NCBI RefSeq assembly: GCF_900104945.1 | Contig: NZ_LT629736.1 | Coordinates: forward strand, 744,001-808,000 | Reading direction: 5' to 3' | Source of the DNA: Halopseudomonas xinjiangensis | GTDB taxonomy: Bacteria; Pseudomonadota; Gammaproteobacteria; Pseudomonadales; Pseudomonadaceae | Length of the DNA: 64,000 bases | Shown here: positions 44,804 through 58,404 of the stretch, piece after piece | Layout: every line of letters starts with the position of its first letter | How positions within the stretch are numbered: position 1 is the first letter of the stretch | Notes under the pieces: generated by a model | Databases searched by the model: none | What the model was told of the DNA's origin: nothing | Seen by the model: only the letters and a program-made list of their open reading frames with translations | Translations under genes and position numbers: made by a program

Positions 44804-45227
44804 GAGGTGATCGGAATTATTGTTCGCGGATTTCTCCGTTTCGTCTTTCCGTAGGAGCGGGCATGACCGCGAAGGGGGTTGGTTTCTGTTGATGGTCGCT
44901 GGCCCTGTTCGCGCTCATGCCTCGGCGGCCCCTCACCTCTACAGACGGGACGCCTGGGGCGGGGCGCCGTTCGTCGGATCAAGGAAGCGACCGATTTTTC
45001 CTGAAGCAGGGATGAAGCGGGTTCTGCCAAATGGCCCGCCTGAAATGACAGTCAAAACGTCAAAATCCCATTGTTTTGCCATCATGCTCCGCTTATATTG
45101 GCGGCTCTCTGGCGCGAACTGGTTCACGTTTTTTCTCTGCCCTTGGAGATCGGGCGCCCGTCGCCCCGCGCTAAAAATGATGCCTGGACGCATCGTTGTT
45201 AAAGAGTTTTTCAAGGAGGCGGACAGG
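44804..45227. other. Intergenic region upstream of rfaH with one REP element
   Basis: 424 bases with a type A REP (GTAGGAGCGGGCATGACCGC plus GAA, 44851-44873) and a degraded relative near 44908-44945. No gene is supported. The rfaH promoter probably lies in the second half; AAGGAGG precedes the chosen start. Confidence 0.55.
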
Positions 45228-45734
45228 ATGTCTGGCAAGGAAAGCAACGCTCCCCAGTGGTACCTCATTCAGTGCAAGCCCCGCCAGGACGCTCGCGCCG
45301 AAGAACATCTGCGTAATCAGAATTTCCCCTGTTACCGTCCGGTCCATCCTGTCGAAGCCATCCGCCGCGGCAAGCGTGTCATGCTGGACGAATCGCTGTT
45401 CCCCGGATACTTGTTCATCAATCTATGTCAGCACACCGACAGCTGGCACAGCATCCGCTCGACACGCGGCGTTGCGCGGCTGGTGACGTTCTGCGACCGG
45501 CCGGTGGCCGTTCCCGGCGAGATCATTGTCGACATCCGTCAGCGGCTAGCCGTCCATCAGGCGCAGCCGCTATTCGCCTCGGGCAGTGCGGTCGTCGTGT
45601 CCGATGGGCCGTTCCGCGATATCCAGGCCATCTTTCAGAAGGCAGACGGCGAGGAGCGGGCAATCATCCTGCTGAGCATCCTTCAGCGTCAGCAATCGAT
45701 CAGTGTGCCGATGAGGATGTTGCGGGCTGGCTAA
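45228..45734 (+). CDS. rfaH: Transcription antitermination protein RfaH
   Basis: 168 residues, close to the E. coli length of 162. The N-terminal NGN domain has WYLIQCKPRQDARAEEHL, RGKRVMLDESLFPGYLFI and RGVARLVTF, and the C-terminal domain has the KOW-like GSAVVVSDGPFRDIQAIF...DGEERAIILLSIL, both matching RfaH rather than housekeeping NusG. RfaH binds RNA polymerase paused at ops sites and suppresses termination in long LPS and capsule operons. The start after AAGGAGG was chosen over an ATG 48 bases earlier. An ops core is at 36330-36338 in the exopolysaccharide locus; the O-antigen genes follow directly downstream. Confidence 0.9.
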   Translation: MSGKESNAPQWYLIQCKPRQDARAEEHLRNQNFPCYRPVHPVEAIRRGKRVMLDESLFPGYLFINLCQHTDSWHSIRSTRGVARLVTFCDRPVAVPGEIIVDIRQRLAVHQAQPLFASGSAVVVSDGPFRDIQAIFQKADGEERAIILLSILQRQQSISVPMRMLRAG

Positions 45735-45789
45735 GCACCAACGGCGTGCACGGGTTAGTATTGGGCCGATTGTTTTGAACGGACCTTAC

Positions 45790-46722
45790 ATGACTGTTTA
45801 TCTTACCGGGGCATCGGGCTTCATCGGGTCTCGATTGCTGGCGACGTTACATGCGCAGGGGCGGGACGTAGTGACTATCGCCAGGGAGCGCCGCGACAGG
45901 CCCCTATCAAGCAAGCAAGTGAACCTTGACGATCTCGCTTCCGCTGGTTTCGTAGCGGGTGGTCGGCGGGTGCTGGTGCATTGCGCCGGTCGCGCGCACG
46001 TGATGAACGAAACCGCTGTTGATCCGTTGGCCGCCTTCCGCCGGGCTAACGTCGAACTCACCGTGCGACTGGCTCGGATGGCGGCGGCGGCAGGCGTGGA
46101 CCGCTTCGTCTATCTCAGCTCTATAAAGGTCAATGGCGAAGCGACGTTGCCTGGGCATCCCTTTACTGCGTTCGACGAACCCCATCCTCTGGATGCCTAT
46201 GGGCAATCGAAATGGGAAGCCGAAGAGGCATTAAAGGAGTTGGCGGCCGATACAGGAATGGAGATCGTGATCATCCGCCCCGTCCTGGTCTACGGGCCGG
46301 GTATACGCGGCAACATTCGCAGCATGGTGGCTTGGATTCAGCGCGGTCTGCCATTGCCGCTGGCGGCGGTAGACAACACACGAAGCTTGCTTGGATTGGA
46401 TAATCTTGTCGACCTGGTCATTACCTGCCTGGATCACCCCGCCGCAGCCAACAACACTTTTCTCGCCGCTGATAGCGAAGATATCTCCACTCCTGAGCTT
46501 GTCCGCCGCATCGCGAAGGCAGTTGGCCGCGACGCCAGGCTGTTTCCGGTGCCCGTCGCATGGATGGAGTCGGGTGCAAGCATGGTGGGTAAAAAGGACC
46601 GGGTACAAAAGCTCTGCGGATCTTTACGGGCAGACATAACCCATACCTGCCAGACGCTCGGTTGGCGGCCGCCTGTTTCGCTGGATGATGGGTTGCGGTT
46701 GATGACGGGGCGGAGCCTATGA
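45790..46722 (+). CDS. NAD-dependent sugar-nucleotide epimerase (WbpV-like)
   Basis: 310 residues with NAD-binding VYLTGASGFIGSRLLATL, the SDR active site VYLSSIKVNGEAT and Y-x3-K in DAYGQSKWEAEEAL, and RPVLVYGPGIRGN. It resembles P. aeruginosa WbpV, a UDP-HexNAc C4-epimerase acting just before WbpL, which also follows here. The ATG at 45790 was preferred to a TTG five codons earlier. It overlaps the next gene by four bases (ATGA). A QuiNAc or FucNAc precursor role is inferred from the neighbour. Confidence 0.83.
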   Translation: MTVYLTGASGFIGSRLLATLHAQGRDVVTIARERRDRPLSSKQVNLDDLASAGFVAGGRRVLVHCAGRAHVMNETAVDPLAAFRRANVELTVRLARMAAAAGVDRFVYLSSIKVNGEATLPGHPFTAFDEPHPLDAYGQSKWEAEEALKELAADTGMEIVIIRPVLVYGPGIRGNIRSMVAWIQRGLPLPLAAVDNTRSLLGLDNLVDLVITCLDHPAAANNTFLAADSEDISTPELVRRIAKAVGRDARLFPVPVAWMESGASMVGKKDRVQKLCGSLRADITHTCQTLGWRPPVSLDDGLRLMTGRSL

Positions 46723-47753
46723 CGCCGATATCGCTACTTGTCATGATGACTCTGATGTTGCTCTGTAGCGCGGCCGGCACCTGGCTGCTGCGCCGCTATG
46801 CGTTGGCTCGCAAGTTGATGGACGTGCCCAACGCACGCAGTTCGCACAGCGTGGCGACGCCCAGAGGCGGCGGCCTGGCATTCATAGTCATATACAGCGC
46901 TGCGCTGCTCTGGCTGGGCGCGAGCGGCTATGAATCCTGGGAGTCGCTGGTTGGATTGCTGGGGGCGGGATTGATGCTCGCAGTGGTTGGTTTCATGGAC
47001 GACCATGGTCATATTGCTGCGCGTTGGCGGTTGCTGGTACATCTTGCTGCGGCCGCCTGGTTGCTGGCGTGGCTAGGCGTCCCGATGCTGACCCTGGGAA
47101 CGTTAGACATCGAGCCGGGCTGGTGGAGCTATGTAGTGTTCGGCCTCGCGTTGGTCTGGTTGCTAAACCTGTTCAACTTCATGGACGGGATCGATGGGAT
47201 CGCCGGTACCGAGGCGATCACCGTGTGCCTGGGCGGAGTACTTTGTTACTGGCTGATTGGTCAGCCGCTGCTGGGCTTGCCTGCGCTGCTGCTGGCCTTT
47301 GCGGTGCTGGGATTCCTGTTCTTCAACTGGCCGCCGGCGAAGATCTTCATGGGCGACGCGGGCAGCGGCTTCCTCGGCATCTTGCTCGGCGGGTTGGCAG
47401 TGCAGGCCGCTCTGGTACATCCGGCCTTGTTGTGGTCTTGGGTCATTCTGCTTGGCGTGTTCGTCACTGATGCAACCATTACCCTATTTCGACGTCTCAT
47501 GCGCCGAACCCGGATCTACGAAGCGCATCGCAGTCATGCGTATCAACGTGCAACCCGACGCCACGGAGGTCATCTGCCTGTGACGCTGTCGGTGTTGTTG
47601 CTCAATGTGTTCTGGCTGCTGCCTCTGGCGTGTCTTGTAGCGCTTGGATATGCCGCAGGGCTCATTATCGCTGTGGTCGCTTACGTGCCGCTGATGCTCG
47701 TAGCCTGGGCGTATGGAGCGGGTCTCTCGGATGACGAAACCAGTTTCGTCTAG
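46719..47753 (+). CDS. wbpL: Undecaprenyl-phosphate sugar-1-phosphate transferase (WbpL/WecA-like)
   Basis: 344 residues with about eleven membrane spans and the MraY/WecA family motifs: VGFMDDHGHIAARWRLLVH (Mg-binding DD), LNLFNFMDGIDGIAGTEA, WPPAKIFMGDAGSGFLG and the basic HRSHAYQRATRRHGGH. The family moves HexNAc-1-phosphate onto undecaprenyl phosphate to begin O-antigen synthesis; WbpL of P. aeruginosa initiates both A- and B-band LPS. It follows the WbpV-like gene by overlap. Together with Wzm/Wzt downstream this fits an ABC-transporter O-antigen. Confidence 0.9.
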   Translation: MTPISLLVMMTLMLLCSAAGTWLLRRYALARKLMDVPNARSSHSVATPRGGGLAFIVIYSAALLWLGASGYESWESLVGLLGAGLMLAVVGFMDDHGHIAARWRLLVHLAAAAWLLAWLGVPMLTLGTLDIEPGWWSYVVFGLALVWLLNLFNFMDGIDGIAGTEAITVCLGGVLCYWLIGQPLLGLPALLLAFAVLGFLFFNWPPAKIFMGDAGSGFLGILLGGLAVQAALVHPALLWSWVILLGVFVTDATITLFRRLMRRTRIYEAHRSHAYQRATRRHGGHLPVTLSVLLLNVFWLLPLACLVALGYAAGLIIAVVAYVPLMLVAWAYGAGLSDDETSFV

Positions 47754-47931
47754 GGTCCGCTCTGCGGCAAAAGATTGACGCCAATCTAGAACTTTTGGCG
47801 GGTCTTGGTTGTACGGGGGTGTGCCGCGCGGCTACTATTCGCCTCGAATAAATTCCAGGCCTAAGCTTGAGCTGTTTCGCTCGCAGTTTTGGAGCTCCAG
47901 TTTGCTTAGCATCGAACGAAGAGAGGTGTAC

Positions 47932-48819
47932 ATGAAGGGCATCGTATTGGCCGGCGGCTCCGGCACTCGCTTGTATCCCATCACCAAGGGCGTTTCCAAG
48001 CAACTGGTACCCTTGTACGACAAGCCGATGGTCTACTACCCCATTTCGGTGCTCATGCTTGCAGGCATACGTGACATTCTTATTATCACCACCCCCGAAG
48101 ATCAAGCCAGCTTTCAGCGGCTGTTGGGTGATGGCTCCGAAATGGGCGTTCGTTTCGAGTATGTAGTACAGCCCTCTCCGGATGGTCTGGCGCAGGCGTT
48201 TATCCTGGGCGAGGAATTCATCGGCGACGACAACGTCTGCCTCGTGCTCGGCGACAACATCTATTACGGTCACGGCTTGGCAGAAACGCTGGCCAGCGCG
48301 GTCTCCAATGCAAACGATGAGAACCGGGCCACCGTCTTTGGTTACCGCGTGCATGATCCGGAGCGATATGGCGTAGCCGAATTCGATGCGAATGGCGTCG
48401 TGGTCAGCCTTGAAGAAAAGCCCAAGGTACCGAAGTCCAACTACGCCGTGACTGGGCTGTATTTTTACCCGAACGACGTTGTAGGCAAGGCAAAGGAAGT
48501 CAAGCCATCGGATCGCGGTGAGCTCGAAATCACCACTTTGAACCAGATGTACCTTGAAGAGGGCCGGCTTAAAGTTGAGCTCCTCGGCCGTGGTTACGCC
48601 TGGCTGGACACTGGTACGCACGAGAGTCTGCTGGAAGCGTCCCAGTTCATCGAAATCATCGAAAAACGTCAGGGCTTGAAGGTCGCGTGTCTCGAGGAAA
48701 TTGCCTTCGAGATGGGTTATATCGATAAAGACCAGTTGCTGGCGCTGGCCAAACCTCTGGCGAAGAATCAGTACGGCCAGTATCTGATTCAGCGCGCCGA
48801 AGAAGGGGCCTTTCGGTGA
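47932..48819 (+). CDS. rfbA: Glucose-1-phosphate thymidylyltransferase
   Basis: 295 residues starting [20 protein letters not shown], with [18 protein letters not shown] and [11 protein letters not shown], the characteristic RmlA motifs. It makes dTDP-glucose, the first step of dTDP-L-rhamnose synthesis. The ATG after GAGAGG was chosen; a frame open 123 bases further upstream has no coding support. It starts a tight rfbACDB block about 180 bases after wbpL, with a possible promoter in that gap. Confidence 0.94.
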
Positions 48820-49391
48820 AGTTCATTCCGCAGTCGATTCCTGACGTAGTTCTGTGCCAGCCAAAGGTGCACGGCGACCACCGAGGCTATTTCACCGAGA
48901 CGTTTCGTCAGGATCTGTTCGAAGAAGCCGTCGGACATAAGGTCGACTTTGTGCAGGACAACGAATCCAGCTCTACTCGCGGCGTTTTGCGGGGCTTGCA
49001 CTTTCAGCTGGCGCCGCATGCGCAAAGCAAGCTTGTGCGTGTGATCAAGGGTGCCGTTCTGGATGTGGCGGTGGATATCCGCAAGGGCAGTCCTACATTC
49101 GGTCAGCATGTCGTGGCGGAGCTCACCGAAGAGAACAAGCATCAGTTATTCGTTCCACGTGGTTTTGCCCATGGCTTCGTGGTGCTGAGTGAGCAGGCGA
49201 TATTCGCCTACAAGGTTGATAATTACTATTCTCCGGAATGTGATCGCGGCCTGGCCTGGGACGATCCGGCCATCGGCATCGACTGGCACATCGCGACGGA
49301 GCAGGTGTTGTTGTCCGAAAAGGATACCCGCCAGCCAAAGCTCGCCGAGCTGAAAGAGACCTTCGATTACGGTGTGGACTACTATGCCTAA
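48816..49391 (+). CDS. rfbC: dTDP-4-dehydrorhamnose 3,5-epimerase
   Basis: 191 residues with [19 protein letters not shown], the active-site [38 protein letters not shown] and [12 protein letters not shown], the RmlC cupin motifs. It converts dTDP-4-keto-6-deoxyglucose to the L-lyxo form. The start is GTG, overlapping the rfbA stop by GTGA. It overlaps rfbD by eight bases. Confidence 0.94.
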
Positions 49392-50271
49392 GACGGTTTT
49401 AGTCACGGGCGCGACCGGTCAGCTTGGCCGCAGCATCCAGTCGATTGCGCAAGCGCATCCTGAACTTGAATTCACCTTCGTTGATCGCTCGATGATGGAC
49501 CTGGCTGACCCCGCGTCCATAGCCGCGCGCCTGGAGATGAACCGGTACGACTTCATCGTCAACTGCGCCGCGCATACTGCTGTGGACAAGGCAGAAAGCG
49601 AACCCGAACTGGCAGACCGCATCAATCATCTTGCGGTCAAACAACTCGCTGAAACCGCGAAGGAGCAGGGCGCTTTTCTGATCCACGTGAGCACCGACTA
49701 TGTTTTCGATGGCTGCCACTACAAGCCCTACGAAGAAGATCATCCGACCGATCCGGTAAACCGTTACGGCGCAACCAAGTTGCTGGGTGAGCGCGCCATG
49801 CAGCAATCGGGTGTGTCCGGTGCGATCATCCGCACCAGTTGGGTCTACTCCGAGTTCGGTAGCAACTTCGTCAAGACCATGCTTCGCCTCGGGGCCGAGC
49901 GTGACCTGCTTACCGTCATCAGCGACCAGGTCGGCACGCCCACCTACGCTGCTGATCTGGCGCAGGCGATCGTTACGATGATCGAGCAGCGCGTGGCCAG
50001 CGCCGATCAGACTGGTTGCGAAGTCTTCCATTTCAGCAATGAAGGTGCGTGCAGCTGGTACGACTTCGCGGTCGAGATCTTTGACCTGATGGATATGGAT
50101 TGCCAGGTCAAACCGATACCCGCGACTGAATACCCGACTCCCGCCAAACGACCGCATTTCAGCCTGCTGAGCAAGCAGCGCATCAAGGCGCAGCTAGGTA
50201 CTGGCATTCCGCACTGGAAGCATTCGCTGAAGCGGTGCTTGCAAAAGATCAAGGAACAAAACAATGGCTAG
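49384..50271 (+). CDS. rfbD: dTDP-4-dehydrorhamnose reductase
   Basis: 295 residues with the Rossmann start [44 protein letters not shown], and Y-x3-K in [11 protein letters not shown], typical of RmlD, which makes the last step to dTDP-L-rhamnose with NAD(P)H. The ATG inside the rfbC end was chosen because it begins the Rossmann fold exactly. It overlaps rfbB by eight bases. Confidence 0.94.
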
Positions 50272-51340
50272 AATTCTGGTTACCGGCGGAGCTGGTTTCA
50301 TCGGCTCGGCTGTCGTCAGGCATCTGATCGACAACACAGAGCATGAAGTGGTAAACCTCGACAAGCTCACCTATGCAGGCAACCTCGAATCGCTGGCGTC
50401 CGTAAGCGAGGACTCCCGGTATCGCTTCGAGCAGGTCGACATCTGCGACCAGGCTGAGGTGAAGCGTGTATTCGAGCAGCACCAGCCGGACCTGGTCATG
50501 CATCTGGCAGCTGAGTCCCATGTTGATCGTTCGATCGACGGCCCTGGCGAATTCATCCAGACCAACCTGATCGGCACCTATGTTCTGCTGGAGCAGGCGC
50601 GCGCTTACTACCAGTCGCTCAGCGAAGACCGCAAGGCTGCGTTCCGCTTTCACCACATCTCTACCGATGAAGTATATGGTGATCTGCCGCACCCCGAAGA
50701 GCAGGAAGGCGAGCTGCCGCTGTTCACCGAAAAGACGCCTTACGCACCCAGTTCGCCGTACTCGGCCAGCAAGGCCGGATCGGATCATCTGGTACGTGCC
50801 TGGCATCGCACCTACGGCTTGCCCATCGTCCTGACCAATTGCTCGAACAATTATGGCCCGTACCATTTCCCCGAGAAACTGGTGCCGTTGATGATCCTCA
50901 ACGCCATCGAAGGCAAGCCGCTGCCGGTCTACGGCAAGGGAAATCAGATTCGTGACTGGTTGTTTGTGGAAGACCACGCGCGCGCATTGGTTCTGGTCGC
51001 CACCACCGGGAAAATCGGCGAGACTTATAACATCGGCGGCCACAACGAAAAGCAGAACATCGAGGTGGTGCATACCATCTGCGAACTTCTGGACGAGATG
51101 CATCCCCGCGCGAAGGGCAGCTACAAGGATCTGATAACGACCGTGAAGGACCGCCCTGGCCATGATATGCGCTACGCGATCGACGCTAGCAAGATCAAAC
51201 GCGAGCTTGGCTGGTCGCCGGAAGAGACCTTCGAAAGCGGCATCCGCAAGACGGTCGGTTGGTATCTCGATAACCAGCAATGGTGCCAGCGGGTACAGGA
51301 TGGGAGTTATCAGCGTCAGAGATTGGGAGCGGGAAGCTGA
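50264..51340 (+). CDS. rfbB: dTDP-glucose 4,6-dehydratase
   Basis: 358 residues with [38 protein letters not shown], catalytic [12 protein letters not shown] and Y-x3-K in [13 protein letters not shown], plus [12 protein letters not shown]. RmlB dehydrates dTDP-glucose. Here it is the last of the block rather than the first as in the usual rmlBDAC of pseudomonads, and the downstream Wzm ATG abuts its stop. Confidence 0.95.
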
Positions 51341-52171
51341 ATGCAGCGCTTCGACATTTCGCCGGTTCGCCTAGCGAAAGACATCTGGATACACCGTGGC
51401 CTGATATTCAACCTGTCGAAACGAGAAATCGTCGGAAGATACCGCGGCTCGTTCATCGGTATTTTCTGGTCGTTCCTGACACCGCTGCTGATGCTCGTGG
51501 TGTTCACCTTCGTCTTCGGTGAGATCTTCCAGGCCCGCTGGGGCGCGCGGGGCGGGGGCGGCGGGCAGGGGTCCCTGGACTTTGCCGTCGCGTTGTTCGC
51601 GGGTCTGCTGATCTTCAACTTTTTTTCTGAGTGCATCAGCAAGGCACCCGGTCTCGTTACCAGTAGCGCCAACTATGTGAAAAAGGTGGTATTTCCGCTG
51701 GAGATACTGACTCCGGTCACGTTGATTGCAGCCCTGTTTCACTTGCTGGCCGGTTATTCCATATTGTTCCTGCTGATGTTGTTTTCCAGCTGGGAGTTTT
51801 CCTGGCACACGTTGTTGTTGCCGGTTGTCTTCGCCCCGTTTCTGGTATTGATTCTGGGACTTACCTGGGGTCTTTCCGCGCTGGGGGTCTACCTGCGCGA
51901 TGTCGGCCAGCTGATCGCTCCAATCCTTACGGCGATGATGTTTCTGAGTCCGATCTTCTATCCGCTGTCCAGCGTGCACGAAAAGTATCTCTGGATTTAC
52001 CAGATCAATCCGCTGACGTTTATCATCGAGCAGACACGTGCAGTGCTGCTGGAATCGCAGATCCCAAACTGGAACGGCTACCTGTTGTACAGCGCAGTGA
52101 GTGTCGTGGTCGCCTTCGCGGGCTTTGCGATGTTCCAGAAGACGCGCAAGGGGTTCGCCGATGTGCTCTGA
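51341..52171 (+). CDS. wzm: O-antigen ABC transporter permease (Wzm)
   Basis: 276 residues with six membrane spans and the ABC-2 polysaccharide exporter pattern: LSKREIVGRYRGSFIGIFWS at the N-terminus, ASNYVKKVVFPLEILT-like segment (here SSANYVKKVVFPLEILTPVT), DVGQLIAPILTAMMFLSPIFYPLS and a final NPLTFIIEQTR. Wzm forms the inner-membrane channel that exports completed, lipid-linked O-antigen. The gene abuts rfbB and overlaps wzt by 11 bases. Confidence 0.92.
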   Translation: MQRFDISPVRLAKDIWIHRGLIFNLSKREIVGRYRGSFIGIFWSFLTPLLMLVVFTFVFGEIFQARWGARGGGGGQGSLDFAVALFAGLLIFNFFSECISKAPGLVTSSANYVKKVVFPLEILTPVTLIAALFHLLAGYSILFLLMLFSSWEFSWHTLLLPVVFAPFLVLILGLTWGLSALGVYLRDVGQLIAPILTAMMFLSPIFYPLSSVHEKYLWIYQINPLTFIIEQTRAVLLESQIPNWNGYLLYSAVSVVVAFAGFAMFQKTRKGFADVL

Positions 52172-53489
52172 TGTCGCGATTCAGGTAACCGGTCTCAGCA
52201 AGTGCTACCAGATCTATGACACGCCGCAGAGTCGTCTAAAGCAGATGCTCATGCGCAGCCGGAAGAAGTACTACCGCGAGTTCTGGGCGCTGCGGGACGT
52301 CAGCTTCGAACTACGCCGGGGCGAGACGGTGGGGATTATCGGACGCAATGGCAGCGGCAAATCAACATTGTTGCAGATGGTCTGCGGAACGCTGAACCCG
52401 ACCGCCGGCGAAATCCGCACCAATGGCAAGATTGCAGCGCTGCTCGAGCTCGGCAGCGGCTTCAACCCAGAGTTTACCGGCCGCGAAAACGTGTATATGT
52501 CCGCTTCGATCTATGGGTTGAACCGGAGTCAGGTGGACGAACGATTCGACAAGATCGCCGAGTTCGCCGACATTGGCGACCATATGGACCAGCCAGTCCG
52601 CAATTACTCCAGCGGGATGTACGTCAGGCTGGCGTTCGCTGTCATCGCCCATGTCGACGCGGATATTCTGGTGATTGACGAGGCCCTTGCGGTTGGTGAT
52701 GCGGTCTTCACGCAGAAGTGCATGCGCTTCATTCGGCGGTTCAAGGAAACCGGTACGCTCCTCTTCGTCAGCCACGACATCAATTCCGTGCTTAGCCTGT
52801 GTAATCGGGCCGTGTGGCTGCACGCAGGGGAGCTGCGTGAGACCGGAAAAGCCAAGGACATCGCCGAGAACTACCTGCAGTACACCTTCCAGGAAGTCTA
52901 TGGTTCGACGGCAGACCTGGAAACCATCCGCAAGGATGACGCCGACGAGGAACAAACGGCTCCGGTCTCGGATGACCCCAGCTCGTGCCTGGATTACTCA
53001 GCGACCTTTGACGTAAGCGATAATCTGGACGCTGCCAATGGCTGGAAAAGCGGGGCGGGAGAAATTACAGCCGTCGAACTGGTCAACCTTAGCGGTCAGA
53101 CCGAGGGCGTATTTCAGGGCGGGGAAAAGGTCGAGATGACCATCCGCGCCGTGGCGCATAGCGACCTGAAGCAGCCCATTCTCGGTTTCCTGGTCAGGGA
53201 TCGGCTCGGTCAGGATCTGTTTGGTGAGAACACGCTCCCATTCACGGACGTGCTCCCGATTCCGGTCTCTGCGGGAGAAGCCTTCGAAGCTCGCTATACG
53301 TTTCGGCTACCTATGTTGCCGAATGGTCAGTATCTCGTGATGGCTTCGCTGGCTGACGGCGATCTCGTCGACAATGTTCAGCATCACTGGCTGCACGATG
53401 CGATGGTGATCAATGTTTCGTCGAGCAAAGTCCGGTGGGGGCTCGTCGGGGTACCATTCGAAAAAGTCATTTTGAAGAAGAATTCATGA
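52161..53489 (+). CDS. wzt: O-antigen ABC transporter ATPase with carbohydrate-binding domain (Wzt)
   Basis: 442 residues: ATP-binding domain with Walker A GRNGSGKST (61-69), signature NYSSGMYVRLAFA, Walker B ILVIDEALAVGD and switch VSHD, then a C-terminal Wzt_C domain from about residue 270 (AGEITAVELVNLSGQTEGVF...DRLGQDLFGENT...LPNGQYLVMASLADGD). In E. coli O9a the Wzt C-terminal domain reads the modified non-reducing end of the glycan before export. The next gene encodes a protein with a methyltransferase domain that could make such a mark. It overlaps the next gene by ATGA. Confidence 0.93.
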   Translation: MCSDVAIQVTGLSKCYQIYDTPQSRLKQMLMRSRKKYYREFWALRDVSFELRRGETVGIIGRNGSGKSTLLQMVCGTLNPTAGEIRTNGKIAALLELGSGFNPEFTGRENVYMSASIYGLNRSQVDERFDKIAEFADIGDHMDQPVRNYSSGMYVRLAFAVIAHVDADILVIDEALAVGDAVFTQKCMRFIRRFKETGTLLFVSHDINSVLSLCNRAVWLHAGELRETGKAKDIAENYLQYTFQEVYGSTADLETIRKDDADEEQTAPVSDDPSSCLDYSATFDVSDNLDAANGWKSGAGEITAVELVNLSGQTEGVFQGGEKVEMTIRAVAHSDLKQPILGFLVRDRLGQDLFGENTLPFTDVLPIPVSAGEAFEARYTFRLPMLPNGQYLVMASLADGDLVDNVQHHWLHDAMVINVSSSKVRWGLVGVPFEKVILKKNS

Positions 53490-56458
53490 AAGCATTGCCG
53501 GAACTGTACGAGCAGCACAAGGGAAAAGTCTCTGACAAGTGGTCACTGTACTTGAAAGAGTACGATGAGCTGTTGAGCCCGTATCGCGACAGGTCGGTCA
53601 ACCTGCTGGAGATCGGCATTCAGAACGGCGGATCGCTGGAAATCTGGAGTCAGTACTTCCCCAAGGCGATCCGGCTGGTTGGTTGTGACATCAATCCCAA
53701 CTGCGCCCAGCTCGAATACGAGGATGCGCGCATCGCGGTGGTGGTAGGGGATGCCAATTCGGACGAGTCAGAATCGGCAATCCTGTCGCACGCAAAGAAG
53801 TTCGACATCATCATCGACGATGGGTCTCATACTTCCGGTGACATAGTTCGCTCCTTCGCTCGCTATTTTCCGTACCTGAAGCCAGGTGGAATATTGCTCG
53901 CTGAAGACTTGCACTGCAGTTACTGGCAAGGCTATCAGGGCGGACTCTACAATCCGTTTTCGTCGATCACCTTCTTCAAACGGCTTGGTGATGTCGTGAA
54001 TTTCGAGCACTGGGGAAGGCCGGGTTCCCGGTCAACGGTACTGGCCGGGTTCGCGGAGCATTACGGCGTCACGTTCTCCGAAGAGGCCCTTGCCGCGGTT
54101 CATTCAGTGCAATTCGTCAATTCCCTTTGCGTGGTAAAAAAAGCGCCTGCGCCAGAGAATGTGCTGGGCGAGCGGCTCATCGTAGGGGAGACGGAGCCGG
54201 TTCTGCCGCTGCGTGAAACGCTCTCGGCTTCCCCTGCCAGCACTCCGGATCAAAGCGAAAACCCCTGGACAATGCTGGACCGTGCGCCAGATGAACAATT
54301 CGACACGCTGAAACAACAGCTCGCGCAGCGAGAAGCTCAACGGGCTGATCTCAGCAATCGCTTGGCAGAAGAATCCCAGCGGGTTTCAGCGCTCGACGAG
54401 CTTGTTCAGCATGACGCTCAGCAAATGCAGTCCCTGGGAGAGCAGCACAGTGCCGACCTGCGAAGAATTGAGGAGCTGAAGGGCCAGATACTTCAGCACC
54501 AGCAGCGTGCTGAAGAAATGGAGCGAATCGTCGCCCAGGTGTGGTCCTCCACCAGTTGGAAGGCGACCTCGCCACTGCGCATTGTCGGGACGCAGGCGAA
54601 GCATCTACGCACCCTCGGCGGCGGTGCCAGTCATCTCTTCAAGCATTACGGCGCTATCGGCTCGGTACGAAAGGTGTTGGAGGTCATGCGCACCGAAGGC
54701 GTTGCGGGCTTCAGGCATCGAGTCGAGCAACAGGTTGAACTCCAGGCTGAGAATGATTACGCCGAGTGGGTGCGCCTGTACGACAGCCTGAAAGACGAGG
54801 ACCGCAAGCAGATTCGGCGAATCGTTGCTGAATGGGTAGATCCGCCGCTGATTTCGATCGTGGTGCCCACTTATAACCCTAGCGCTGCCTGGTTTACCGA
54901 AGCGGTCGACTCGGTGCGCAACCAGCTATACCCCAACTGGGAGCTCTGCATTGCGGATGATGCCTCGACTGACCCGGCAGTCAGGCCGCTGCTGGAGAAG
55001 ATCGCCGCATCCGATTCCCGGATCAAGGTCGTGTTCCGCGAACAGAACGGACACATCTCGGCGGCCTCCAACAGCGCTCTCTCACTGGCGACCGGGCAGT
55101 GGGTCGCATTGCTGGATCACGACGATCTGTTGCCTGAGCACGCCCTGTATTGTGTCGCGAAGGCGATCATCGAGGATCCTTCCGTACGGATGATCTACTC
55201 CGACGAAGACAAGATGAATGAGAAAGGGCAGCGCTACAGCCCTTACTTCAAGTGCGACTGGAACCCGGATCTGTTCTACTCGCACAATATGTTTTCGCAT
55301 CTGGGGGTGTACCAGAAGCAACTGCTCGACGAGATTGGCGGGTTCAGACTTGGGGTCGAAGGGTCTCAGGATTATGACCTTGCGCTTCGCTGTATCGAGC
55401 GTATCGATGCCAGAGCTATCCATCACATCCCGCGGGTGCTGTACCACTGGCGGGTGCATGCTGAAAGTACAGCCAGCGGTGCGGATGCCAAGCCCTACGC
55501 GATGCTCGCAGGCATGCGCGCCATCAACGAGCATTTCGAACGAACCGGAGTCAAGGGCAAGGTCGAGCTGGTCGGGCCGGGGTATCACGCTTCGTACGAT
55601 CTGGAGCCTACGCCGCCGCTGGTTTCGCTCATCATTCCGACGCGTAACGGAGTCGAGCTTCTCCGGCAGTGCGTTTCGAGCATCCGCGAGAAGACCGACT
55701 ACCCGAATTACGAGTTGATCATCATCGATAACGGTTCGGACGATCCCGCCACGCTGTCGTACCTGCGTTACATCGAGTCGCCGACAGTTCGAGTCATCCG
55801 CGATGACCGTCCGTTCAATTTCTCCGCGCTGAACAACGTAGGGGCGGCTGCAGCGTCGGGCGAGGTCCTCGGTCTGATCAATAACGACATCGAGGTTATT
55901 TCGCCGAGCTGGCTCCGCGAGATGGTGTCCCATGCGCTCCGGCCGGAGGTCGGTGCGGTTGGCGCGAAGCTTTCATATCCGAATGATCGTATTCAGCATG
56001 CTGGAGTGGTGCTGGGCATGGGTGGCGTCGCCGAACATGCTCACAAGCAACTGCCGCGGACGGCATACGGCTATTTCAGCCGCGCTAGCCTGATCAGCGG
56101 CTTTTCGGCGGTCACCGGCGCTTGTCTGATTGTGCGCAAGGCGCTCTACCAGGAACTGGGCGGGCTGAACGAAGAGCTCGCGGTCGCTTACAACGATATC
56201 GATTTCTGCCTCCGCCTCAAACAGGCCGGTTATCGCAATATCTTCCTGCCTTCCGCGGAGCTTTATCACCACGAGTCCGCGACCCGAGGGCCGGAAAGCG
56301 ACCCGGCGAAGCTGGAGCGGCTTGCCAGGGAAGAGCAGTATATGTGGGAGCGCTGGGAAGCATGGCTGAAACACGACCCGGCCTACAGCCCCAACCTGAC
56401 GCTCGAGCGCCAGGATTTCACCTTGGCCTGGCCGCCCCGGGTACGAGCCCTGTTCTGA
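53486..56458 (+). CDS. Multidomain protein: methyltransferase, coiled coil and two GT2 domains
   Basis: 990 residues in four parts. Residues about 35-215 form a class I SAM methyltransferase (LLEIGIQNGGSLEIW, VGCDINPN, IIIDDGSHTSGD, LKPGGILLAEDL), of the type seen in sugar O-methyltransferases such as MycE/TylF-like enzymes. Residues about 265-352 are heptad-rich and probably coiled coil. Residues about 455-690 are a first GT2 domain (SIVVPTYNPSAAWF, IADDASTD, LLDHDDLLPEHALY, YSDEDK) and residues 711-960 a second (SLIIPTRNGVELLRQC, IIDNGSDD, LINNDIEVIS, YNDIDFCLRL). The ATG overlaps the wzt stop. The fusion may extend, methyl-cap and size O-antigen chains, like WbdD in E. coli O9a; this is inference. 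Confidence 0.85.
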   Translation: MKALPELYEQHKGKVSDKWSLYLKEYDELLSPYRDRSVNLLEIGIQNGGSLEIWSQYFPKAIRLVGCDINPNCAQLEYEDARIAVVVGDANSDESESAILSHAKKFDIIIDDGSHTSGDIVRSFARYFPYLKPGGILLAEDLHCSYWQGYQGGLYNPFSSITFFKRLGDVVNFEHWGRPGSRSTVLAGFAEHYGVTFSEEALAAVHSVQFVNSLCVVKKAPAPENVLGERLIVGETEPVLPLRETLSASPASTPDQSENPWTMLDRAPDEQFDTLKQQLAQREAQRADLSNRLAEESQRVSALDELVQHDAQQMQSLGEQHSADLRRIEELKGQILQHQQRAEEMERIVAQVWSSTSWKATSPLRIVGTQAKHLRTLGGGASHLFKHYGAIGSVRKVLEVMRTEGVAGFRHRVEQQVELQAENDYAEWVRLYDSLKDEDRKQIRRIVAEWVDPPLISIVVPTYNPSAAWFTEAVDSVRNQLYPNWELCIADDASTDPAVRPLLEKIAASDSRIKVVFREQNGHISAASNSALSLATGQWVALLDHDDLLPEHALYCVAKAIIEDPSVRMIYSDEDKMNEKGQRYSPYFKCDWNPDLFYSHNMFSHLGVYQKQLLDEIGGFRLGVEGSQDYDLALRCIERIDARAIHHIPRVLYHWRVHAESTASGADAKPYAMLAGMRAINEHFERTGVKGKVELVGPGYHASYDLEPTPPLVSLIIPTRNGVELLRQCVSSIREKTDYPNYELIIIDNGSDDPATLSYLRYIESPTVRVIRDDRPFNFSALNNVGAAAASGEVLGLINNDIEVISPSWLREMVSHALRPEVGAVGAKLSYPNDRIQHAGVVLGMGGVAEHAHKQLPRTAYGYFSRASLISGFSAVTGACLIVRKALYQELGGLNEELAVAYNDIDFCLRLKQAGYRNIFLPSAELYHHESATRGPESDPAKLERLAREEQYMWERWEAWLKHDPAYSPNLTLERQDFTLAWPPRVRALF

Positions 56459-56521: not shown

Positions 56522-57472
56522 GTGGCAGGAATGATGGTTGCGAGCTCGGCTCAGCATGGGGTAGACGTCACGCCGATGGCTGTGATGGCGGTTATTGTGA
56601 GCTTCAATCCTGAAGCGTCTACATTCAGTCAGCTGCTGACGCAGTTGTCGGCGCAGGTGGAAAGGATTGTCGTAGTCGACAACGCCTCGACAGGCGACAT
56701 CGCCAGTCTGGTCAGGGCGGTCCCGGAGGCTACGGTGGATCTGCTGCAGGCCACCCAGAACCTGGGTATAGCTGCGGCGCAAAATCTCGGGATCAGCAAG
56801 GCGTCGGAGTCCGGGTGCGATGCGATCATATTCTTCGACCAGGACAGCAGGATTCCGGACGGTGTGATAGCGCGCCTCAAAGCGCATTTGTGCGATCCGG
56901 CGGTTTCCATAGTCGCTCCGGTACATTTCGATGCAGAGCAGGGCTTTGGCTATCCGGTGGTGGACATCGCGCCTAACGGCACACGACGGAAGTGGCAGCC
57001 TGAAACGCTGTCCAGCCCCATTGATGTGTCTGTGGCGATTTCCTCGGGTACACTTGTCCGTCGTGGTGTTTTCGATCAGGTGGGTCTCATGGATGAGAGT
57101 CTGTTCATCGACTATGTCGATACCGAATGGTGCTTGCGTTGCGTGCAAAAAGGTTACTTTGTCCGCGTTGAGCCTGCCGCCCGCCTTGAGCATTCTCTGG
57201 GCCTTCGCTCCGCCTCGCTAGGCCGGTTCCGCATCCCTATCCATCGTCCCGAACGTCGGTATTATCGGATTCGAAACGCGCTTCTGCTGGTGCGCTATCC
57301 CCATGTTCCTTTGCTGATGGCGCTCCGTGAGGTGATCTTTGGTTTCGTACATACGTGCGTGATCGTGCTCTTGGTTCGCCATCGCCAGGACTACCTGCGT
57401 TTTTATGTGAAAGGGGTTGTCGACGGGGTCCGTGGTCGCTCCGGACCTTGCTCGCAGCGGAGTTCACGTTGA
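56522..57472 (+). CDS. Rhamnosyltransferase-like glycosyltransferase family 2
   Basis: Up to 316 residues with the GT-A pattern AVIVSFNPEASTFSQLL, IVVVDNASTGD, FFDQDSRIPDGVI and the acceptor-side SSGTLVRRGVFDQVGLMDESLFIDYVDTEWCLRC, close to RfbN/RgpA-type rhamnosyltransferases. The start is uncertain: GTG at 56522, ATG at 56531 or 56534, or ATG at 56576, which begins just before the catalytic fold. It lies in the O-antigen operon just after the multidomain transferase and overlaps the next gene by TTGA. dTDP-rhamnose as donor is supported by the neighbouring rfb genes. Confidence 0.85.
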   Translation: MAGMMVASSAQHGVDVTPMAVMAVIVSFNPEASTFSQLLTQLSAQVERIVVVDNASTGDIASLVRAVPEATVDLLQATQNLGIAAAQNLGISKASESGCDAIIFFDQDSRIPDGVIARLKAHLCDPAVSIVAPVHFDAEQGFGYPVVDIAPNGTRRKWQPETLSSPIDVSVAISSGTLVRRGVFDQVGLMDESLFIDYVDTEWCLRCVQKGYFVRVEPAARLEHSLGLRSASLGRFRIPIHRPERRYYRIRNALLLVRYPHVPLLMALREVIFGFVHTCVIVLLVRHRQDYLRFYVKGVVDGVRGRSGPCSQRSSR

Positions 57473-58404
57473 CAGCGTGGCCCGAAGCCCGAGTCGCCGT
57501 TCTCCTGGCCGCGCATCAGGGTCGAATATGGCTGCCTGACCAGATCCAGTCGATCCTGGACCAGATCGGGGTTAGCGTCACGATCCTGATAAGTGTGGAT
57601 CAGTCCACCGATGGTACCGAGGCATACGTCGACCACGCGGCGTTACAGCATTCCAATATCCGTATCCTGCCGCATGGGCTGAAATCCGGGACCGCCGCAG
57701 CCAATTTCTTCAGACTGATACGCGAACTTGATCCTGAAGGCTTCGACTACGTCGCATTCGCCGATCAGGATGATCTCTGGGATCAGGACAAGCTGGATCG
57801 GGCTATCGGTCAGCTTCGGCTACGGGGGGCGGATGGGTATTCAGGCAACGTCACTGCCTTTTGGCCGGATGGCCGCGAAAAGCTGATAAACAAGGCCCAG
57901 GCGCAGCGGCGCTGGGATTTCCTCTTCGAGGCCGCCGGTCCAGGCTGCACCTACGTCATGTCGCGGCACCTGTTCGAAGCGCTGCAGAGCTTCGTTTCGA
58001 CTCGTACGGGAGCGCTTGGCTCGGTCTACCTGCACGACTGGTTCTGCTATGCGTTCGCTCGGGCCAACGGGTTTTCGTGGTGGATAGATCCCGAACCGAA
58101 GATGCAGTATCGCCAGCACCAGAACAACCTCGTGGGTGTGAACCAGGGCTGGAAAGCCAGAATGGGCAGGTTTCGCCACGTATCCAGCGGCTGGTGGCTC
58201 GATCAGGCGCGAACGATTGCACGCTTGCTGGGACTGGAAAGCTCCGCTTTCGTGCGCTCCTGGATCGATCCGAACAAGCGTAGCGGCTATCTGGTTCTGG
58301 TGTTGAATGCCCGTAATTGCAGACGCAAAGCGATCGACGCTTTCTTCATGAGTATGATGGTGCTCCTGCTGGCGATACATCCGCCGTCATACGAAACGGA
58401 TTAG
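57469..58404 (+). CDS. Glycosyltransferase family 2 (O-antigen)
   Basis: From the TTG that overlaps the previous stop as TTGA, with GGAG six bases upstream, the product has 311 residues. Motifs: VAVLLAAHQGRIWLPDQIQSIL, LISVDQSTDGTEAYV, FADQDDLWDQDKLDRAI (D-x-D-D metal site) and YLHDWFCYAFA with a later HQNN segment. The family includes many rhamnosyl- and hexosyltransferases of O-antigen loci. An ATG 38 codons upstream would lie inside the previous gene and is unlikely. Donor and acceptor unknown. Confidence 0.83.
   Translation: MTAWPEARVAVLLAAHQGRIWLPDQIQSILDQIGVSVTILISVDQSTDGTEAYVDHAALQHSNIRILPHGLKSGTAAANFFRLIRELDPEGFDYVAFADQDDLWDQDKLDRAIGQLRLRGADGYSGNVTAFWPDGREKLINKAQAQRRWDFLFEAAGPGCTYVMSRHLFEALQSFVSTRTGALGSVYLHDWFCYAFARANGFSWWIDPEPKMQYRQHQNNLVGVNQGWKARMGRFRHVSSGWWLDQARTIARLLGLESSAFVRSWIDPNKRSGYLVLVLNARNCRRKAIDAFFMSMMVLLLAIHPPSYETD

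Follow-up and report, generated by a model that had tools for sequence, protein, structure and literature searches.

A polysaccharide locus on the forward strand of the Halopseudomonas xinjiangensis window (the whole 64,000-nucleotide stretch of DNA analysed here) opens with an RfaH antiterminator and continues through genes for nucleotide-sugar synthesis and the ABC transporter Wzm/Wzt to a 990-residue protein, P0001, and two further glycosyltransferase (GT) genes (Table 1). Among the rml genes, rmlA scores above the cut-off of TIGR01207, RmlD and the dehydratase are recognised by Pfam, and rmlC is read from its translation only. The start codon of P0001 overlaps the wzt stop codon as ATGA, and Pfam finds both ABC_tran and Wzt_C in the Wzt protein, which bears out the initial annotation in placing P0001 directly after a Wzt with a C-terminal domain. 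Further downstream lie a nucleotidyl transferase resembling GalU, a UDP-sugar dehydrogenase and PGI. P0001 probably does not carry out every step of polymer synthesis, because the locus also encodes a WecA-like enzyme and, beyond P0001, two more GTs. In a scan for promoters and terminators the number of sites was no greater than in shuffled DNA. Within the genus, the methyltransferase (MT) head of P0001 occurs in 4 of 37 genomes, the source genome included.

Table 1. Features of the polysaccharide locus and of P0001 (window positions)
Feature	Position	Strand	Basis
RfaH antiterminator, cluster head	44820..45734	+	TIGR01955 176.8 bits, cut-off 144.5 (NCBIfam)
SDR-type nucleotide-sugar epimerase/reductase	45775..46722	+	none of 20 families listed above cut-off
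WecA-like polyprenyl-phosphate sugar-1-phosphate transferase	46719..47753	+	TIGR02380 71 bits, below cut-off
rmlA, rmlC, rmlD, rmlB: dTDP-L-rhamnose supply	47809..51340	+	rmlA start probably near 47926
Wzm, ABC-2 permease	51341..52171	+	Pfam ABC2_membrane
Wzt, O-antigen exporter ATPase (probable start)	52161..53489	+	Pfam ABC_tran, Wzt_C
Wzt_C, proposed cap-reading domain	53037..53450	+	PF14524 108 bits; 8dky and 6o14 about 2e-8
P0001 (MT - coiled coil - GT2 - GT2), 990 aa	53486..56458	+	ORF, Pfam, AlphaFold2 model
Sugar O-methyltransferase domain, residues 1-225, MycE/SpnK type	53486..54160	+	Pfam, PDB sequence match, alignment, Foldseek
Coiled coil, residues 265-352 (model helices 268-340, 345-352)	54278..54541	+	heptad test; moderate-confidence model
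SSTSWKATSPLR motif and basic helical stretch, residues 355-420	54548..54745	+	alignment; low-confidence model helices
GT2 domain 1, residues 457-690	54854..55555	+	Pfam; chondroitin synthase sequence match 452-690
GT2 domain 2, residues 710-960	55613..56365	+	Pfam 710-931
GT2, rhamnosyltransferase subfamily TIGR01556, probable adaptor enzyme	56522..57472	+	244 bits, cut-off 200.55
GT2 (true start probably later than 57355)	57355..58404	+	Pfam

Domain structure of P0001

The initial annotation described P0001 as a 990-residue fusion of a sugar O-methyltransferase (residues 35-215), a coiled coil (265-352) and two GT2 domains (455-690 and 711-960). The open reading frame, Pfam and an AlphaFold2 model agree with this description and with its domain limits, and the MT-coil-GT2-GT2 architecture is nearly certain. 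Pfam places Methyltransf_24 at residues 41-141 (32.4 bits against a cut-off of 26.3), Glycos_transf_2 at 457-615 and a second GT2 match at 710-931. The model, built from a 20-row alignment, has a mean pLDDT of 77.8 and a pTM of 0.54, with the MT and GT domains mostly well predicted. Neither a kinase nor a CBM is found in P0001 by Pfam, and in the model the MT ends near residue 225 and a helix begins at 268. The source genome holds no second full-length match to P0001. It does encode another multi-GT protein (C1:548570-551032, open frame of 1186 aa) that shares 43% identity with GT2 domain 2 of P0001.

The MT domain carries the motifs EIGxQNGGS, DDGSH and EDLHCSYW. Its closest solved structures by sequence are MycE (3ssm, 7e-22) and 8ia9 (6e-18), and SpnK and MycE, O-methyltransferases of macrolide sugars, rank nearest in Foldseek at 25-28% identity; the substrate of SpnK is a rhamnose of spinosyn. 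For the first GT2 domain the sequence match among solved structures is the K4 chondroitin synthase. In Foldseek the GT pair ranks nearest to this enzyme (K4CP) and to heparosan synthase 2, with whole-chain TM-scores of about 0.2 by the query and 0.3-0.4 by the target; the single GT folds agree with those of K4CP and heparosan synthase, and the low scores indicate a different placement of the two domains.

Residues 265-352 have hydrophobic residues at 65% of a/d positions, compared with 21% elsewhere (p = 0.001, 1000 shuffles), and three control segments (352-440, 41-141 and 457-615) all give p >= 0.64. The shuffle test thus rules out a chance heptad pattern for the coil as a whole, although its halves are weaker when taken separately (265-310, p = 0.107; 310-352, p = 0.013) and the first alone falls short of significance. 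The structure prediction that had been suggested as a check on the coil yields, for the single chain, one 73-residue helix (268-340) and a short helix (345-352) with moderate confidence (pLDDT about 55-77). At a helix rise of about 0.15 nm per residue, the predicted coil would span roughly 11 nm (73 residues) to 13 nm (88 residues). No tandem repeat is present in the DNA of this coil. In the motif that follows it, S355 and W358 are invariant across 20 aligned proteins, and residues 355-420 may have a membrane-proximal role.

Heads, polymerases and Wzt_C domains in related loci

A whole-protein search returns relatives of three kinds, namely full-length proteins (L005, 46% identity), proteins matching just the MT and coil (L010, L011) and proteins matching the GT-GT part only (L006-L009); at the class level, 61 of 369 genomes hold a match at 1e-45 or better. 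For comparison of gene neighbourhoods, 115 loci were scored, 83 with the MT head and 32 with a related GT-GT part and without such an MT. Named loci, 79 in number, came from the best 80 of 308 relatives ranked by similarity to the window MT, and the 32 non-MT loci are hand-chosen regions among GT matches (40 regions fetched). Duplicates (L063, L064, L065 and L067) and the second multi-GT locus of the source genome (L102) were left out before counting.

The polymerase part behind the MT head is variable. It can be GT4-GT4 (L103, L104, L128) or GT4-GT2 (L118), the MT can stand nearly alone (L114, L149), and in L120 (9992-15643) Pfam finds the MT head, WsaF_N/WsaF_C and GT2 domains in one chain of 1884 aa. 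In the 11 of 41 coupled loci (defined below) on which Pfam was run, at least five formats follow the MT: GT2-GT2, GT4-GT4, GT4-GT2, WsaF-GT2-GT2 and an MT nearly alone. Three proteins of 1850-1924 aa (L133, L157, L168) resemble L120 by length and matches only. A locus of Candidimonas humi (L111, 10001-13000 and 13110-16718) has two tandem MT-head genes behind one Wzt, the second without a GT2-GT2 match, and the MT-coil-GT2-GT2 protein of Nitrincola lacisaponensis (L127, 10001-13717) has an additional C-terminal stretch resembling a second methyltransferase.

Related GT-GT parts also occur under other heads. Pfam, run on 9 of the 32 non-MT loci, assigns three sulfotransferase-like heads, two of another MT type (L077, L081), one GT92-like head (L082) and no second domain kind in three. 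The sulfotransferase-like heads precede related GT2-GT2 parts in L070 (7086-10316), L071 (1252-5478) and L073 (7987-11187), the last by a sub-threshold match (20.9 against 27 bits). The L073 gene is located behind Wzm and a Wzt that lacks a C-terminal domain, its coil is repetitive, and both L073 and L074 keep the STSWR motif and the heptad-rich stretch that precedes it. Judging from these domain matches, a sulfate cap is conceivable in the sulfotransferase-headed relatives.

Loci were called coupled when an upstream ABC ORF on the same strand lay within 3.5 kb and its Wzt_C domain matched that of the window at 150 bits or more. A nearby ABC ORF accompanies 48 of the 83 MT loci, and in 41 of these 48 it carries a window-type Wzt_C. 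In three of the seven exceptions the Wzt was scanned; L110 and L162 have another Wzt_C type and L146 has none. The remaining 35 MT loci have no Wzt within 3.5 kb, four of them lying at a contig edge. A nearby Wzt is present in 9 of the 32 non-MT loci, none of which reaches 150 bits and four of which reach 31-96; a Wzt_C of other type was found in L081, L092 and L093 and in the more distant Wzt of L077.

The contrast persists when Wzt_C scores are scaled to those of the ABC domain. With the window (whose 0.68 is a self-match) set aside, the 40 other coupled loci have Wzt_C/ABC bit ratios of 0.47-0.63, and the nine non-MT loci 0-0.28. The ranges of the GT-GT scores overlap: those of the 32 non-MT loci are 309-713 bits, and those of the 16 coupled MT proteins with a fused GT-GT part, besides the window, are 432-822 bits. 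Partial Mantel tests on identity distances used the 41 coupled loci, in 19 of which a GT-GT part is matched at more than 400 bits (17 on the MT protein, and L128 and L152 on another ORF). They give r = 0.71 for MT and Wzt_C with GT-GT held, versus r = 0.26 for GT-GT and Wzt_C with MT held; with the ABC domain also held, the values are 0.44 and 0.11. By these sequence comparisons, the type of Wzt_C is tied more closely to the MT head than to the GTs.

Inheritance as one linked block may explain some of the co-variation, because the MT start adjoins the end of Wzt_C. In its extreme form this argument would make the co-variation a functionally silent hitch-hiking of adjacent DNA, which is compatible with any reading of the enzyme itself. 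The MT gene of the window begins at the wzt stop, the gap between wzt and MT is at most 100 bases in 36 of the 41 coupled loci, and linkage this close predicts part of the Mantel result. Adjacency does not preserve the domain type in L093-L095, however, where a different protein lies directly behind wzt (gap 0) and the ABC domain scores about 260 bits yet Wzt_C only 31-35. Conversely, L143 keeps the window-type Wzt_C with its MT gene about 1.1 kb away. Together with the separation in Wzt_C/ABC ratio, these cases speak against hitch-hiking alone, which is rather unlikely as the whole explanation.

The Wzt_C domain of the window matches the structures 8dky and 6o14 better than 2r5o (0.006). The 6O14 entry is the binding domain of Aquifex aeolicus Wzt, which is described as binding 3-O-methyl-mannose and not mannose, with Trp362 stacking on the methyl group of the ligand as a lid (PMC9445017). 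The same source reports an O-methylated terminal mannose as ligand of the A. aeolicus WzmWzt and a 3-O-methyl rhamnose cap as well. In an alignment to the Aquifex pocket, numbered from the residue names in PMC9445017, the homologous window domain keeps Leu300 and Trp362 and does not keep Thr346, Ala348 and His350. At the place of Trp362 the 41 coupled loci have W in 27, Y in 7, F in 2 and L in 5 (aromatic in 36 of 41), and the Leu300 place varies. Since several sugar-contacting residues differ from those of Aquifex, the capped sugar is probably another one; the pocket pattern is compatible with methyl capping of some other sugar but is no proof of it. A terminal O-methyl cap that is read by Wzt is likely.

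Length variation of the coil

Among 22 proteins the spacer between MT and GT measures 140-379 residues, apart from an outlier of 814. Indels were compared in a set that narrowed from 115 loci to 112 with MT motifs, 64 with a recognisable coil end and 46 distinct proteins, joined by 16 tree edges in 7 clusters. Coil indels between the resulting close pairs measure 4, 7 (three times), 14 (seven times), 18, 21, 28 and 56 residues, so that 13 of 15 are multiples of 7; among the 6 indels elsewhere in the proteins there is no such multiple (Fisher p = 0.0005). The net change in coil length is a multiple of 7 in 10 of 12 pairs, and four pairs show no change. Eleven of the 16 close pairs join Mesorhizobium proteins and a twelfth joins Mesorhizobium with Hyphomicrobiales; independence among the pairs is incomplete, as 10 of the proteins fall into a single Mesorhizobium cluster. 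Restriction to the four Wzt-linked pairs leaves 4 of 5 indels as multiples of 7. As far as can be read from these alignments, the coil is a markedly length-variable part of MT-head proteins, with its heptad register mostly kept.

Matching variation is seen in the DNA. In 81 of the 83 MT loci there was enough sequence for a repeat scan of the 500 bases behind the MT, a distance that may overrun the coil, and tandem repeats with a period of 21n bp were found in 12 of the 81, 8 of these 12 being Wzt_C-linked. A further seven arrays behind the MT have other periods, and the control MT regions hold one array, of period 12. In Janthinobacterium psychrotolerans (L161, 10845-11033) the coil DNA carries an array of 9.0 tandem copies of a 21-bp unit. 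The protein of L163, 94% identical overall to that of L161, has exactly 21 residues (three heptads) fewer in the coil, and that of L171 has ten heptads fewer than L161 over the whole coil. A search of 40 Janthinobacterium genomes gave no close pair beyond the three proteins already found. The indel steps and the 21n-bp repeats together indicate that the coil is built of heptads and lengthens or shortens as these are duplicated or lost.

What the coil does is a separate matter. Coils of this kind, which also change in 7-residue steps, occur in the Mesorhizobium proteins, and no Wzt lies near the named loci (L206 and L208, with short flanks, excluded). For example, L156 (588-16481) encodes an MT-coil-WbsX-GT4-GT2 protein amid Poly_export, Wzz, Wzy_C and rml-type genes, without Wzm/Wzt. 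Its place in a Wzz/Wzy-type locus implies that an MT head and a coil do not by themselves mean a terminator or a ruler, and because one would not expect such a locus to hold a ruler serving ABC-dependent export, the 7-residue steps show a coil and not its function. To that extent, indels in heptad steps lose weight as proof that the coil measures the chain.

Known systems and the proposed mechanism

The closest precedent is WsaE of Geobacillus stearothermophilus, an enzyme of S-layer rhamnan synthesis described as an N-terminal O-methyltransferase with two rhamnosyltransferase domains, in a locus where wzm, wzt and wsaE overlap at stop and start codons and rml genes are present (PMC2943079, PMC3898925). 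The MT domain of WsaE is assigned there to a terminal 2-O-methyl cap. By this description WsaE and P0001 share an MT and two GTs in one protein, an overlap with wzt and rml genes, and the window indeed combines an N-terminal class I O-methyltransferase and two GT2 domains with a wzm-wzt overlap and rml genes. They differ in that WsaE makes its polymer with WsaF, whereas Pfam finds no WsaF among the ten proteins scanned at this locus (P0001 and nine neighbours). A sequence tie to the Wsa proteins is indirect and comes from L120, where an MT head like that of P0001 is joined to WsaF_N/WsaF_C and GT2. Matches to wzm, wzt, WsaE and WsaF are reported from an LPS cluster of Xanthomonas oryzae (PMC3898925), and a wsaE gene is named in group 3 capsule loci of E. 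coli (PMC10433991). In PMC11841133, on a rhamnose-rich O-antigen of Paraburkholderia, neither a methyltransferase nor wzt is treated in any passage.

Several coiled-coil terminators are also related in plan, and P0001 conforms to this class in having a terminating-type enzyme beyond a coil (by Pfam, heptad test and model) in a Wzm/Wzt locus. ORF6 of Klebsiella pneumoniae O7 is described as MT-kinase-CBM (predicted)-coil-GT2-GT2, a maker of methyl-phosphate (PMC11231755). Like P0001 it combines an N-terminal terminator, a coil and two C-terminal GT2 domains (both rhamnosyltransferase modules in O7) in a wzm-wzt locus; the kinase and predicted CBM are absent from P0001 by Pfam, and with no MT-kinase-CBM before the coil in Pfam or the model, P0001 was rejected as a member of that type. 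WbdD of E. coli O9a likewise places a coil between MT and polymerase and hands a capped chain to Wzm/Wzt, but it is described as having a kinase and no GT domains, its polymerase WbdA being a separate protein (PMC3482155, PMC5082667). P0001 was rejected here too, as neither Pfam nor the model places a kinase between MT and coil. Since P0001 lacks a kinase, its expected cap is an O-methyl sugar and not a methyl-phosphate. The beta-Kdo terminator of WbbB, from Klebsiella O12, is a GT99 module, and the N-terminal domain of P0001 is an MT and not a beta-Kdo transferase, which sets P0001 apart from WbbB. WbbB is described as a single polypeptide that extends and terminates its chain with a coiled-coil ruler (PMC11231755). 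In E. coli O101, an MT with a C-terminal coil is proposed as a ruler (PMC13168486). Copy number of a 7-residue repeat in Helicobacter pylori FutA/FutB is described as a molecular ruler for LPS (PMC2583950); these are fucosyltransferases acting along the chain and, unlike P0001, have no coil between polymerase and terminator. With WsaE, O7 ORF6 and WbbB already known, P0001 belongs to a known kind of enzyme. The initial annotation had proposed that one chain extends, measures and caps the polymer as a compact variant of chain-length control; the terminating-type MT beyond the coil, the polymerase-type GTs and the Aquifex-like Wzt_C support this in part, with measurement by the coil as a putative role, and the format as such is not new.

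On balance, and with modest confidence, P0001 can be read as a polymerase-terminator in the format of WsaE, with a coil as ruler and a Wzt that reads the cap, for a rhamnose-rich O-polysaccharide that leaves the cytoplasm through an ABC transporter. A lipid-linked primer would be made by the WecA-like enzyme and the separate GT2 enzymes. To judge from the domain content of P0001 and from the rml genes, the pair of GT2 domains at its C-terminus may then add rhamnose from dTDP-L-rhamnose near the membrane, while the coil, about 73-88 residues or roughly 11-13 nm long, would keep the MT away from the polymerase. Once the chain end reached the MT, a hydroxyl of the terminal sugar would be methylated, presumably at the terminus only, and growth would stop; the neighbouring Wzt_C would bind the methylated end and the chain would be exported. 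Rhamnose as the substrate, methylation confined to the terminus, ruler action and cap reading are all inferred steps.

In an alternative to the length-setting step, capping by the MT and recognition of the cap by Wzt_C would stand, but the coil would serve just as a tether or for oligomerisation, with length determined by enzyme ratios or by the transporter. The Mesorhizobium coils, with their 7-residue steps in named loci that have no nearby Wzt, are in keeping with a tether, as is the report that methylation by WsaE in vitro is independent of chain length, for which an additional factor was suggested (PMC2943079); the predicted coil of the window is also short beside that of WbdD, whose length is about 20 nm and which is described as a ruler (PMC5082667). 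Nevertheless, the coils of E. coli O9a and Klebsiella O12 are described as established rulers (PMC11231755; PMC5082667 for O9a), and marked variation in length while the heptad register is mostly kept also speaks against a mere tether, which is on the whole rather unlikely. The coil of P0001 has a somewhat better than even prospect of being a length ruler. Improbable is a third reading, in which the MT acts on rhamnose in the repeats or in side residues, is no terminator, and is fused only to channel substrate: although an MT-coil head occurs in a Wzy-type locus, where cytoplasmic capping of a finished polymer is not expected, and in 35 of the 83 MT loci no Wzt lies within 3.5 kb, the head is strongly associated with one Wzt_C type across several polymerase kinds when a Wzt is present, and the MT of WsaE is assigned to a terminal cap (PMC2943079, PMC3898925).

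The single-protein format of P0001 is already known; what the comparison of loci adds is the heptad-step and 21n-bp repeat variation of the coil and the pairing of head and Wzt_C. In the open-access literature (titles and abstract beginnings of the papers listed, weak evidence with subscription papers mostly outside it), neither natural variation of such coils in heptad steps or 21n-bp repeats nor a sulfotransferase head was found reported, and no many-locus comparison that pairs kinds of MT head with kinds of Wzt_C was seen there. A tentative evolutionary reading, with somewhat less than even odds, is that of a modular and evolvable length gauge, with swappable capping heads (this MT or one of another type, and perhaps a sulfotransferase), a coil that changes by whole heptads through duplications in multiples of 21 bp, exchangeable polymerases, and a matching Wzt_C that travels with the head. 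If this is true, strains could retune the length of their polymer, and switch cap chemistry together with its reader, leaving the polymerase untouched. The natural variants, such as the Janthinobacterium coils and the related GT-GT parts under different heads, are natural experiments for the models of coil ruler and cap reading, and would show whether bacteria tune the length of surface polymers by repeat copy number.
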